DNA of 25,282 nt from a virus: positions 1-25,282 of IMG/VR virus record IMGVR_UViG_3300025889_000871, one strand, 5' to 3'. The position numbers and the translations under genes are program-made. This document shows, one piece after another, positions 463-25,017 of the stretch (within the stretch, counting starts at the first letter, position 1; every line of letters starts with the position of its first letter). The notes beneath the pieces were generated by a model. The model saw only the letters and a list, made by a program, of their open reading frames with translations, did not search any database and was not told the origin of the DNA.

Positions 463-758
463 ATGACCGCACCCTAGACCAAAACGCGGCGCAATGGCCC
501 ATCCTCGATGCTTGGGCTAAGCAAAAAATATGGGTGGTTAACGGCGCAAAAACGCGCATGAGCGCCGAGGAATGGAAGGACGTACTGACAGCCGCTTTCG
601 AAGGCGAAACGTCGCCACGGCTGGCTATGGGGCTAAATGGAGGGGTTGTTATGCTTGGCAGGCGAACGAGCAAATACACCAAGGCTCGATTCTCTGAATG
701 GCTGGACTGGCTGATGGCAGCAACGCACCACGCGGGAGTAACTCTTGACGAAAGCTGA
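459..758 (+). CDS. ninB: NinB-family recombination protein
   Basis: This 99-aa protein carries the hallmark opening of the lambda NinB (Orf) family, RTLDQNAAQWPILDAWA, followed by a central EEWKDVLTAAFEGE segment and a GGVVMLGRRTSKYTKA segment with the conserved G-x-R-T-S-K signature. Lambda NinB binds SSB-coated single-stranded DNA and supports RecBCD- or Red-dependent recombination, acting like a RecFOR mediator. Length is slightly shorter than the lambda protein (about 146 aa), so it is the core domain without an extended C-terminus. It overlaps the upstream gene by 4 bp (ATGA). The next gene, a Ref-like nuclease, starts with TTG at 745, inside the NinB 3' end. The neighbourhood supports a phage recombination module. 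Confidence 0.85.
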   Translation: MNDRTLDQNAAQWPILDAWAKQKIWVVNGAKTRMSAEEWKDVLTAAFEGETSPRLAMGLNGGVVMLGRRTSKYTKARFSEWLDWLMAATHHAGVTLDES

Positions 759-1038
759 ACGGAAATGGCATGCCAAGGTCAGAGACTTGGGCTGTATTGT
801 GTGCCGGTTGTTCCACGGCGTGCGATCCGATGGGGACATTCACCACGTTCTGTCGGGCAGCAAACGGGCGGGTGAAATGTTTGTGATATGCCTATGTCCG
901 ACGCACCACAGGAGCGGACGCAATACGCCGGAATATGTGAGCCGACACCCCTGGCGCAAGGAATTCGAGAAGCGATACGGGACAGAGCAAGAATTGTTAC
1001 AACAAACGGAGCAGCTATGTGCCAATTTTCAACGGTAA
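745..1038 (+). CDS. Ref-like HNH nuclease (RecA-dependent nuclease family)
   Basis: This 97-aa protein has a zinc-binding HNH-type layout: CIVC at residues 17-20, HH at 33-34, CLCP-x-HH around 49-55, then a C-terminal stretch FEKRYGTEQELL. This order (CxxC, HH, LCPxHH, HPW, F-x-x-RYG-x-x-x-x-L) matches the phage P1 Ref family, whose members are RecA-dependent nucleases that stimulate recombination. The start is TTG at 745, because there is no in-frame ATG before the conserved cysteines and GGGAG lies a few bases upstream. It overlaps NinB by 14 bp. Alternative: a generic phage HNH protein such as NinG-like or DUF968-like; the RYG motif argues for Ref. Confidence 0.75.
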   Translation: MTKAERKWHAKVRDLGCIVCRLFHGVRSDGDIHHVLSGSKRAGEMFVICLCPTHHRSGRNTPEYVSRHPWRKEFEKRYGTEQELLQQTEQLCANFQR

Positions 1039-9468: not shown

Positions 9469-9549
9469 ATGGCATTCGCCAATAGTTCTATCAGCGACAT
9501 TATCGCTACTAACATCCAAAGCCGTAGCGGTGAGCTTGCTGATAACGTT
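9469..9549 (+). CDS. Major capsid protein, exon 1 (codons 1-27)
   Basis: ATG at 9469 has GGAG (9459-9462) 6 bases upstream. The exon reads MAFANSSISDIIATNIQSRS and then GELADNV, the normal N-terminus of a phage coat protein family ('MAFxNxIxDIIAxxIQxRxGxLADNV'). Without splicing, translation ends at TAA 9550-9552 after 27 codons. The exon end is set by P1 pairing: ATAACGTT (9542-9549) pairs with GACGTTAT (9559-9566), and the last base U9549 forms the required U-G wobble with G9559. Joined to 10253-10419 and 10678-11431, it gives 1002 nt, a continuous 333-aa protein. Confidence 0.9.
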
Positions 9550-10252
9550 TAACATATAGACGTTATAAAACTCCGTGAATTCGGTGAAAAGCTGAGATGC
9601 CAACACCGAGCCAAACCGCAAAGGATAACCAAGGGTTGCGGAAGGTGTAACGACTAGGATGCGACGGAAGTCAAGTCCCACGAGCGCGGAGCGTAAGTAT
9701 TAACCAAAGAGGGGAATCCCAAATGGTAACGATCTACGGATTAGAAGATGCAAGTACCGGCGCGGCTTATGTAGGCTGCACATCAGGCAAGATAGGTAAG
9801 CGGATGCGCGAGCATCGCAGCCTGTTGAAATCCGGGAAACACACTTCTAGACGGTTGCAAGAAGCGTGGAACGATCACGCTGGTTTGTTTCAAATGAAAG
9901 TCTTAGAAACAATGCCAGCAGATGTATCCGTGATTGAGAAGCGCGAGCGTGAGTTGTCTTGGATGAAGCATTACAGGGTGCAAGATTTGTTGCTAAACGA
10001 AAATGAACTATCGTTTAGACCCCCTGCGGATGCTCCAAAAAAGGCAGCGGCGGCACGAGTAGCCAATGGTTACCGTCCTAGCGCGGAAAGCAACTTAAAG
10101 CGTAGATTGGCGCAGCTTGGAAAGCCGAAAGGTCACGGTGCAAAAATTAGCGCCACCAAGCAAGCGAAAAACTTACGATGAGATAGTCTGCTCTGCATGG
10201 AAGAAAACATGCAGGAGCTTCGGATAAAGAGCCGAGGACATGAACAAAAAGG
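9550..10252 (+). mobile_element. Group I intron 1 (T4-like, IA2-type) with GIY-YIG gene
   Basis: The 703-nt intron interrupts the capsid gene between codons 27 and 28. Core elements: P1 (9542-9549 with 9559-9566), a conserved GAATTCGGTGAAA block (about 9579-9591), ACCGAGCCAA (9605-9614), the P7 5' strand GACTA (9652-9656), the P7 3' strand TAGTC (10184-10188) inside AGATAGTCTGCTCTGCAT, a P9 hairpin CTGCAT/ATGCAG (10193-10198, 10209-10214), and a further hairpin CTTCGG/CCGAGG (10218-10223, 10232-10237). The GATAGTCTGCTCTGCAT block matches my memory of the T4 td intron. The 3' end is placed at G10252, so exon 2 resumes as TNNNALLRRL. I saw no clear P10 helix for this intron. The endonuclease gene lies between the P7 strands, so probably in a P8-side loop. 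Confidence 0.88.
9723..10181 (+). CDS. GIY-YIG homing endonuclease in capsid intron 1
   Basis: This 152-aa protein has the GIY-YIG nuclease layout: IYGLEDASTGAAYVGCTS with the two signature strands (IYG at 4-6, YVG at 16-18), KRMREH at 26-31 holding the catalytic Arg27 and His31, and ERELSWMKHY near 75-84 holding the metal-binding Glu77. The basic C-terminal tail (RPSAESNLKRRLAQLGKPKG) looks like NUMOD3-type DNA-binding segments. It would cut intron-less capsid alleles and drive intron spread. The ATG at 9723 follows GAGGGGA. Its TGA (10179-10181) abuts the conserved AGATAGTC block of the intron core, so gene and ribozyme are tightly packed. Shorter than I-TevI (245 aa), with a correspondingly small DNA-binding part. 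Confidence 0.92.
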   Translation: MVTIYGLEDASTGAAYVGCTSGKIGKRMREHRSLLKSGKHTSRRLQEAWNDHAGLFQMKVLETMPADVSVIEKRERELSWMKHYRVQDLLLNENELSFRPPADAPKKAAAARVANGYRPSAESNLKRRLAQLGKPKGHGAKISATKQAKNLR

Positions 10253-10419
10253 ACAAACAACAACGCCCTGCTGCGCCGACTGAAGGAACGCGGAAACGTC
10301 AAGACCTTCTCAGGCGGTAACGTAATCTTGCAAGAGATTATGTATAACGACAGCGCCACCAACAACACCAATAGCTATAGCGGCTATGAAGTGCTCAATG
10401 TGAGCCAAAACAGTCCCAT
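10253..10419 (+). CDS. Major capsid protein, exon 2
   Basis: The exon has no start codon of its own and is invisible to standard gene finders. Read in the frame set by exon 1 it gives TNNNALLRRLKERGNVKTFS, then GGNVILQEIMYND, SATNNTNSYSGYEVLNVSQ and NSPI. This matches the early region of the coat family ('VTxNNALLxRLKxxGxVxxxSGGxxILQE...SGYxxLxVs'). The 3' boundary, after AT of the Ile codon at 10419, is supported by P1 (CCAU 10416-10419 with GUGG 10430-10433) and by restoration of the family spacing PI-SAAQF. Reading through would hit TGA at 10454 within intron 2. Confidence 0.88.
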
Positions 10420-10677
10420 TAATGCATTGGTGGCCTTGCAGAGAAATCTGCATTGAAAAACTTTGTGAATTCGGTGAAACCCTGACCATTAAGTTGAAGG
10501 CAATACCGAGCCAAGCCCGCAAGGGAAGGTGTAACGACTAGAGGGTGACTCCTCGTAGAGCCAAGTGGCTCGAAGTGCAAAGAACCCGCAAGGGTTGTGA
10601 GATAGTCTGCTCTGCATAGAAATATGCAGCAGTCCGAAAGGGCGGCAAGGAATTAACGAATCCTTGTGAACACATGG
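10420..10677 (+). mobile_element. Group I intron 2 (T4-like, IA2-type), no endonuclease
   Basis: A 258-nt minimal intron. P1 pairs CCAU (10416-10419) with GUGG (10430-10433), with U10419-G10430 at the splice site. P10 pairs intron TGCATTG (10423-10429) with exon-3 TAGTGCA (10678-10684), contiguous with P1 and fixing the 3' splice site after G10677. The GTGAATTCGGTGAAA block, ACCGAGCCAAG, GGTGTAACGACTA with P7 5' GACTA (10536-10540), AGATAGTCTGCTCTGCAT with P7 3' TAGTC (10603-10607), and a P9 hairpin CTGCATA-GAAA-TATGCAG (10612-10629) with a GNRA tetraloop are all present. GTCC-GAAA-GGGC (10632-10643) and CAAGGA/TCCTTG (10646-10651, 10661-10666) form further hairpins. It shares its core blocks with intron 1. 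Confidence 0.9.
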
Positions 10678-11431
10678 TAGTGCAGCACAGTTCTCGATCA
10701 CCCAGTACGCTTCGGCAGTTTCGATCAGCGGCCTGGAAATGATTCAGAACAGCGGCAAAGAGGCGATCATTGACCTGCTGGACGGTCGTATGAACGTTGC
10801 TGAAGCGCAACTGGCTAACCGCATCAGCGGTGACCTGTATCTTGACGGTACTGGGAACGCTGGTAAGAACCTGACCGGCTTGGGCGCTGCTGTGCCTGAT
10901 GCTCCAAGTTCGGGCACTTACGGCGGCATTGATCGTGCTACTTGGTCGTTTTGGCGCTCGGTGTCTTATTCCGGCGTGACCAACGGCGGCGCTGCGGTCA
11001 CCTACAGCAACATCCAGCAATACATGGATGCAGTCGCTGTTCAGTTGATTCGTGGAACGGACAAGCCTGATCTGATCGTGGCTGACAACAACTACTATCG
11101 TCTTTACCTGCAATCGCTGCAAGCGATCCAGCGGATTACCGATAGCGGTTCGTCGATGGCCGGTGCTGGCTTTGCCTCGCTGAAATACTTCGGCGCTGGT
11201 ATGGCTTCGGATGTGGTGCTGGACGGTGGTATCGGTTCTTCCGCTACCGCTAACCATATGTTCTTCTTGAACACTAAGTACCTGATGTTCCGTCCGCACG
11301 CTGATCGTAACTTTGTTCCGATTGGTGGCGAGCGCCAAGCAGTCAACCAAGATGCAATCGTTAAGCTGATTGGTTGGGCCGGTAACTTGACTAGCAGCGG
11401 CCCGCAGTTCTGCGGCGTGCTGATTGCTTAA
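10678..11431 (+). CDS. Major capsid protein, exon 3 (main part)
   Basis: Exon 3 starts at T10678, completing the Ile codon, and reads SAAQFSITQYASAVSISGLE, then MIQNSGKEAIIDLLDGRM and ends at TAA 11429-11431. Segments such as TGLGAAVPDAPSSGTYGGID, RATWSFWRS, FLNTKYLMFRPHADRNFVP and GWAGNLTSSGPQFCG are typical of a phage coat protein family with an HK97-like fold that builds the icosahedral head. An unspliced reading would start at the internal ATG 10739 and give only 230 aa, missing the N-terminal 103 residues. With exons 1 and 2 the protein is 333 aa, close to the family's usual 320-340. The next gene starts 12 bp downstream with GGAGA in between. Confidence 0.94.
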
Positions 11432-24549: not shown

Positions 24550-25017
24550 GTGACTACGCAAGAGCGTCTGAAAGAATTGTTCGATTATCAAGACGGACAA
24601 TTTATTAACCGCAAAACAAATGCGGTGAAGGCGCTTGTGCCAATTACAAAGCACCATCGTTATTGTAGAGTAGTCATCGATGGCAAAGCATATGCATTTC
24701 ATCGCATGGTATTTTTTTATCACAAAGGTTATTTGCCAAAAATTATTGACCACATGGACAATGACCGCACAAACAATCGCATTGAAAACTTGCGAGAAGT
24801 AACTCAACAACAAAATTGCCTAAATCGTGTTGCACACAAAAATAATCAATCTGGTTATAAAAATGTGCATTGGGATAAAGCAATGAACAAGTGGTCAGTT
24901 CAAATAAGCATCAACCGGAAACGTTGTATATTTGGTTATTTTGATGATCTTGAATTAGCGGGTCTTGTTGCTGTAGAAGCGCGAGACAAATATCATGGTG
25001 AGTTTGCTTGCCACTAG
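24550..25017 (+). CDS. HNH homing endonuclease with AP2-type DNA-binding domain
   Basis: This 155-aa protein has an HNH_3-type nuclease core: AFHRMVFFYHKGYLP (His51), IIDHMDNDRTNNRIENLREV (His68, Asn residues at 75-80), and then a C-terminal AP2-like domain: NNQSGYKNVHWDKAMNKWSV, followed by INRKRCIFGYFDDLELAGLV and AVEARDKYHGEF. HNH plus AP2 is a standard mobile endonuclease of phages. The start is GTG at 24550, with AAAGGA upstream. It sits between tail genes with a lower GC content than they have (many AAT, AAA, TAT codons), which suggests separate origin. I see no intron core in its flanks, so it looks free-standing. Confidence 0.9.
   Translation: MTTQERLKELFDYQDGQFINRKTNAVKALVPITKHHRYCRVVIDGKAYAFHRMVFFYHKGYLPKIIDHMDNDRTNNRIENLREVTQQQNCLNRVAHKNNQSGYKNVHWDKAMNKWSVQISINRKRCIFGYFDDLELAGLVAVEARDKYHGEFACH

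Follow-up and report, generated by a model that had tools for sequence, protein, structure and literature searches.

The DNA analysed here, referred to throughout as the window, is the 25,282-base IMG/VR virus record IMGVR_UViG_3300025889_000871. It carries a major capsid gene split into three exons by two group I introns, the first of which encodes a homing endonuclease and the second of which, intron 2, is the subject of this report (Table 1). When the three exons are joined the coding sequence is open over 333 codons, and its product matches the major head protein family phrog_9953 (E 3e-107). The best 80 IMG/VR matches align across capsid residues 1-333 and most of them are uninterrupted, the closest being L002, with 99% amino-acid identity to the window protein. 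Because homologues encode the protein without interruption, both capsid junctions in the window are fixed. A plasmid search gave zero matches. Host labels came from eight metagenome-assembled bins, and as these labels are mutually unrelated (Armatimonadetes, Lysobacterales, Chloroflexota and others) a host cannot be assigned from them. Two side observations concern the records themselves. A 34.6 kb contig, IMGVR_UViG_3300027193_000023, begins with the 35 terminal codons of another, different capsid allele (L210:2-106) in addition to its capsid gene (L211), the former with 97% and the latter with 85% identity to the window protein, an arrangement that hints at a chimeric or strain-mixed assembly. 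Near the start of the window, a 97-aa ORF (745-1038, plus strand) weakly resembles phrog_2321, Ref-like RecA filament endonuclease.

Table 1. Features of the capsid locus in the window and intron sites in the capsid gene of the phage group.
Feature	Position	Strand	Evidence or remark
Major capsid gene exon 1	9469..9549	+	Codons 1-27; spliced CDS open, intronless homologues collinear
Intron 1, group I, 703 nt	9550..10252	+	RF00028 34.9 bits, E 7.6e-7; ends in G
Intron 1 P1	9542-9549 x 9559-9566	+	Pairing
GIY-YIG homing endonuclease ORF in intron 1, 152 aa	9723..10181	+	PF01541 E 6.5e-6, over cut-off; PHROG homing endonuclease
Major capsid gene exon 2	10253..10419	+	End falls in codon 83; L002 and other intronless homologues are collinear
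Intron 2, ORF-less group I intron, 258 nt	10420..10677	+	RF00028, 17 further copies at site, covariation
Intron 2 P1	10416..10433	+	Exon CCAU 10416-10419 x guide GUGG 10430-10433; invariant in 14/14 distinct copies
Intron 2 P10, 5' strand	10423..10429	+	Pairs with exon-3 bases 10678-10684; 7/7 pairs in window
Intron 2 catalytic core	10461..10607	+	All helices 100% paired over 14 copies
P3	10461-10465 x 10578-10582	+	Drawn from window sequence
P4	10471-10475 x 10505-10509	+	Drawn from window sequence
P5, P6	Within core 10461..10607	+	Drawn from window sequence
P7	10536-10540 x 10603-10607	+	Drawn from window sequence
P7.1	10541-10544 x 10551-10554	+	Between P7 and P3
P7.2	10558-10562 x 10567-10571	+	Between P7 and P3
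P8	10583-10587 x 10592-10596	+	Drawn from window sequence
P9	10612-10618 x 10623-10629	+	GAAA loop
P9.1	10632-10643	+	GAAA loop
P9.2	10646-10666	+	Both-side change seen
Major capsid gene exon 3	10678..11431	+	Remainder of codon 83 to stop; open spliced CDS, PHROG match
HNH_3 endonuclease gene	24550-25017 (match 24691-24816)	+	PF13392 E 3.8e-16, phrog_99; near window right end
Intron site	Codon 27/28		Intron 1, with endonuclease
Intron site	About 53/54		L097 contig (L214:10580-10810); ORF-less
Intron site	About codon 72		L123, L140, L148; ORF-less
Intron site	83/84		Intron 2; ORF-less
Intron site	About codon 309		L070, L091, L140; ORF-less

Judged from its sequence, intron 2 is an ORF-less group I intron, a well-known kind of element. 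A first-pass annotation of this DNA had proposed a 258-nt group I intron with the same splice sites, and both the match to Rfam RF00028 (64.2 bits, E 2.3e-14, above the gathering score of 50) and the uninterrupted homologues agree with it. The annotation had also read the intron as lacking an ORF, and this holds as well, since several in-frame stops are present and no sense-strand ORF of 60 aa was found within it. T10420 and T10678 are the same base, which by itself leaves the boundaries ambiguous between 10420-10677 and 10421-10678; the terminal G (G10677) together with the U.G pair at the 5' splice site favours 10420-10677. A 70-aa antisense frame (minus strand of window 10489-10701) was considered as a gene and rejected, its conservation being due only to the scarcity of indels in the intron.

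To describe the fold, a P1-P10 structure was drawn from the window sequence and then scored on 14 distinct intron copies. Standard pairs form in 98.6% of the 1050 helix cells, compared with 34-41% in slid controls. The P3/P7 pseudoknot core (P3-P8) is present and fully paired in every copy, and P3, P4, P7 and P8 show no variation. Five pairs are changed on both sides (two in P7.1 and one each in P5, P9.2 and P10), although most of the changes come from two related lineages and therefore represent few independent covariation events. P7.1 and P7.2, lying between P7 and P3, assign the intron to the T4-like IA class (IA2 subgroup). The P9 hairpin with a GAAA tetraloop and the later short hairpins noticed before were recovered as P9, P9.1 (again GAAA) and P9.2. 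That the element is instead a decayed, non-splicing structure leaving a broken capsid gene has a probability we regard as next to negligible; the window is an assembled metagenomic record, but the core helices are intact in 14 copies with compensatory changes, and both downstream exons are open and conserved.

The guide region was examined pair by pair. All four P1 pairs between CCAU and GUGG were found exactly as previously read (script-checked as C10416-G10433, C10417-G10432, A10418-U10431 and U10419.G10430), the last being the G.U pair that marks the 5' splice site and, like G10677, invariant across copies. With zero variation in P1, its pairing is neither supported nor weakened by covariation. 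The reading of TGCATTG as the strand pairing with 10678-10684 also stands for the window, where P10 consists of seven consecutive pairs, two of them G.U, that directly abut P1; the chance of a preset 7-pair register matching, G.U allowed, is about (6/16)^7 = 0.001. Across the copies, the inner four pairs, which adjoin the splice site, persist in all copies examined, two of them through one-side changes from G-U to A-U or C-G. The outer three are variable; most copies besides the window's have breaks there, each pair being broken in some, and the outermost (10423-10684) changes on both sides from U-A to C-G. P10 is 4-7 consecutive pairs long in every copy and reaches the full 7 bp only in 4 of the 17 listed copies (the window and three close copies). 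As only the inner four pairs are universal, the perfect 7-bp P10 is not general, and the general rule, as read from these alignments, is a P10 of 4 bp, its usual size. The covariation check of homologous introns that the first-pass annotation had put forward is thus positive overall (five both-side changes in 14 copies) and mixed in the guide region, where P1 is uninformative and the one both-side and two one-side changes in P10 are set against the often broken outer three pairs.

Copies of intron 2 in other viruses were sought with two patterns, a degenerate one that combines the exon 2 terminus with the intron core (pattern 1) and one lying wholly inside the intron (pattern 2). Pattern 1 found 16 further capsid genes with intron 2 at the same position; its match in L086 arose by chance, and L086 was rejected as a carrier. 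Pattern 2 recovered the identical 16 plus L238, also at the same site, giving 17 further IMG/VR contigs, most of them fragments. Since both patterns match at one site only, sequences this close to intron 2 are confined there among 2.9 million viral contigs. Including the window there are 18 copies, 258-261 nt in length and all ORF-less, which fall into three sequence classes (258, 260 and 261 nt) that roughly track capsid lineages. In about a dozen large Vibrio phages, such as 166E36-1 (L228:2501-2793), a stretch with 78% identity to intron 2 separates a hypothetical gene from a tail fibre gene. The annotation there gives a hypothetical protein only, and the stretch is probably an unannotated group I intron.

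Intron 2 is one of several insertions in this gene. Intron 1 is found in 37 other related loci, at 693-703 nt and with a GIY-YIG ORF in every copy, in a nearly constant exon context (GAYAACGTT upstream and ACAAAYAAC downstream); no P10 could be drawn at its 3' exon. The cores of the two introns are related (segments 71-100% identical), whereas intron 1 is 703 nt with a GIY-YIG ORF and intron 2 is 258 nt without one. A local duplication of intron 1 into intron 2 was considered and is not indicated by similarity scores, because the putative Vibrio phage introns match intron 2 with a better BLAST score than intron 1 does. Within the phage group, introns occupy at least five sites of the capsid gene. 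At four of these the copies read are ORF-less, with lengths of about 230-290 nt (Table 1), and the L140 capsid gene contains three introns simultaneously. In a distant capsid relative (L139:7074-8437, 54% identity), a GIY-YIG ORF 64% identical to that of intron 1 lies directly upstream, perhaps as an older form of intron 1.

Comparison of introns with the exons around them strongly supports lateral movement of intron 2 between diverged phages of the group. L082 and L085 have identical introns (0/260) and capsid exons that are 86.7% identical (13.3% different). The introns likewise show 0/258 differences between the window and L084 (exons 93.1% identical, 6.9% different), 0/258 between L083 and L087 (92.0% identical, 8.0% different) and 1/258 between L089 and L097 (90.9% identical, 9.1% different). 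Taking the most divergent carrier pairs (about 9% intron versus 25% exon difference) as calibration for the intron rate, one would expect 12.7, 6.6, 7.6 and 8.6 intron differences for these four pairs, in the same order, and the excess intron similarity has P = 3e-6, 1e-3, 5e-4 and 2e-3. Both sets of figures presuppose vertical descent in the deep pairs and an exon divergence little more saturated in them than in close pairs. Were there saturation, fewer differences would be expected in close pairs, and L082/L085 is therefore the strongest single case. In the capsid tree, carriers are interspersed among intronless relatives, and the nearest relative of the window, L002 (97.4%), has neither intron 1 nor intron 2. 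Vertical inheritance with many losses, the intron being unusually conserved since an ancestor, would fit the rough tracking of capsid lineages by the three length classes and may account for the pattern at depth, but it leaves the recent pairs unexplained: introns with zero differences at 7-13% exon divergence, set beside about 9% intron difference between deep lineages, and the excess similarity in each pair (P about 3e-6 to 2e-3) make it very unlikely.

The exons at the insertion site carry a signature of their own. AGT CCC AT/T AGT (the slash marking the site) is present in every carrier whose sequence can be read through the site; this haplotype is found in 0/115 intronless alleles, and codon 86 is GCA in 14 of 16 carriers as against 3 of 115 non-carriers, counts that are non-independent in that the alleles are related. 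Pattern 2 imposed nothing on the exons, so the haplotype was not created by the search. Exact formation of both P1 and the inner P10 is possible in just 1 of 117 intronless alleles. The simplest reading is co-conversion, in which intron 2 brings a short donor exon segment along; the splicing partners for P1 and P10 would thereby be assured in the new home. In T-even phages, co-conversion is the hallmark of transfer begun by an endonuclease (PMC2988022). A route by which the free intron reverse splices into capsid mRNA, with the product then reverse-transcribed and recombined, would make an endonuclease unnecessary and would draw on an ability of group I introns known from literature that PMC3984707 cites. 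We consider it extremely improbable, as it leaves the recipient exon unchanged, yet so few intronless alleles pair with the guide; moreover, codons 81 (AGT) and 86 (GCA), both outside P1/P10, are common to carriers, which points to a co-converted exon, and the pattern search found intron 2 at one site only.

The extent of the shared flanks, compared in flanks extracted directly from the DNA (in the codon table the L084 and L095 rows are outliers upstream of codon 83, owing to overlapping tblastn pieces), bears on how the transfer may have occurred. Bins of pairwise exon identity, which contain the same upstream artefact, were excluded. In L082 and L085 the exons are identical up to 32 nt before the site and 5 nt after it, beyond which divergence is at background level, while the flanks of window/L084 and L083/L087 stay similar for at least 100 nt on one side. 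The longer flanks are what would be seen if the intron had been passed on by ordinary homologous recombination among co-infecting phages, with no endonuclease and with patchiness arising from exchange and loss; the highly similar capsid DNA common to the phages makes such recombination plausible, and no endonuclease was found in the carriers. The L082/L085 tract around an identical 260-nt intron is, however, so tight that passive double crossovers are unlikely, and the rare exon haplotype in every carrier argues in the same direction, leaving passive transfer rather unlikely as the explanation.

A search for the mobilising endonuclease covered the carrier contigs. GIY-YIG genes were found in 0/16 of the carrier contigs searched, which led us to reject the intron 1 enzyme as a general mobiliser of intron 2. 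The carrier contigs also contained no HNH, LAGLIDADG_3 or Endonuclease_7 gene, the Endonuclease_7 search having been run without a positive control. One carrier has an HNH_3 gene some 9 kb away from the intron, and HNH_3 is likewise present in the window and in two intronless relatives; that of the window is absent from most of 27 relatives examined. When four 30-35 kb carrier contigs were compared with five intronless contigs, no carrier-specific gene was found other than antisense intron frames, and the comparison otherwise yielded poor-quality antisense frames and ordinary variable genes. An endonuclease ORF is absent from the interior of all 18 copies of intron 2. The first-pass annotation had offered two options, an intron that lost its endonuclease or one mobilised by an endonuclease encoded elsewhere. 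With no endonuclease-bearing form among the copies, the former has no direct support; the latter fits the lateral spread, though none was found in the carriers. Co-infecting phages may encode the enzyme, or it may be of a family not recognised so far; it may also have escaped detection, since most contigs are fragments.

Overall, we consider it probable that intron 2 is an ORF-less IA-type group I intron that spreads by break repair started by a trans-acting endonuclease (collaborative homing). On the sequence features described above, splicing would begin with a guanosine bound in P7 attacking 3' of U10419, which is positioned by the U.G pair of P1; exon 2, now free, would then attack 3' of G10677, with exon 3 aligned by P10. 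This would restore ...AGT CCC ATT AGT GCA..., with the ligated junction AGTCCCATTAGTGCA. For mobility, an endonuclease, which we infer to act in trans, would cut both strands of an intronless capsid allele, and the break would be repaired by copying from an intron-bearing co-infecting phage, a short flanking exon stretch travelling with the intron and supplying the P1 and P10 partners. A bolder version, which we regard as possible although doubtful, is that intron 2 is mobile without any endonuclease of the phages that bear it, using breaks made by other elements of co-infecting phages or an unrecognised endonuclease family, and that the capsid gene is a landing platform shared by at least five insertions, of which four lack an ORF.

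ORF-less group I introns are usually viewed as immobile relics. The 18 copies at one site would constitute a natural record of recent transfers of such an intron, and what is new here is the lateral movement, cleanly recorded in the absence of an encoded endonuclease; the concentration of introns in one gene adds to this. As the donor exon, the empty sites and sister phages are all on hand, travel without an endonuclease becomes testable. There is also a warning for annotation, in that this highly expressed structural gene is in up to three or four pieces in some genomes, where mis-calls will result.

Intron 2 can be compared with several known systems. Like it, the group IA2 introns of T4 td, nrdB and nrdD have a core with P7.1/P7.2, a 5' U.G pair and a terminal G, lie in phage genes and have exon flanks that are co-converted on transfer (PMC2988022); they differ in encoding endonuclease ORFs and in residing in nucleotide-metabolism genes, whereas intron 2 has no ORF and lies in a capsid gene. 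The capsid location has precedents in mycobacteriophage LittleE and lactococcal phage Tuc2009, both with a group I-type intron in the major capsid gene (PMC3706429). Splicing of the LittleE intron was demonstrated by RT-PCR, but that intron is 819 bp long with an endonuclease frame (PMC3706429), and its phage group and site are unrelated to those of intron 2. ORF-less introns of 265 bp are found in tail genes of BAKA and Optimus (PMC3706429). The psbA intron of cyanophage S-PM2, with its free-standing endonuclease F-CphI (PMC6083498, PMC3984707), is like intron 2 an ORF-less, laterally transferred group I intron at a fixed site; in S-PM2 the endonuclease gene adjoins the intron-bearing gene, whereas none was found beside intron 2.
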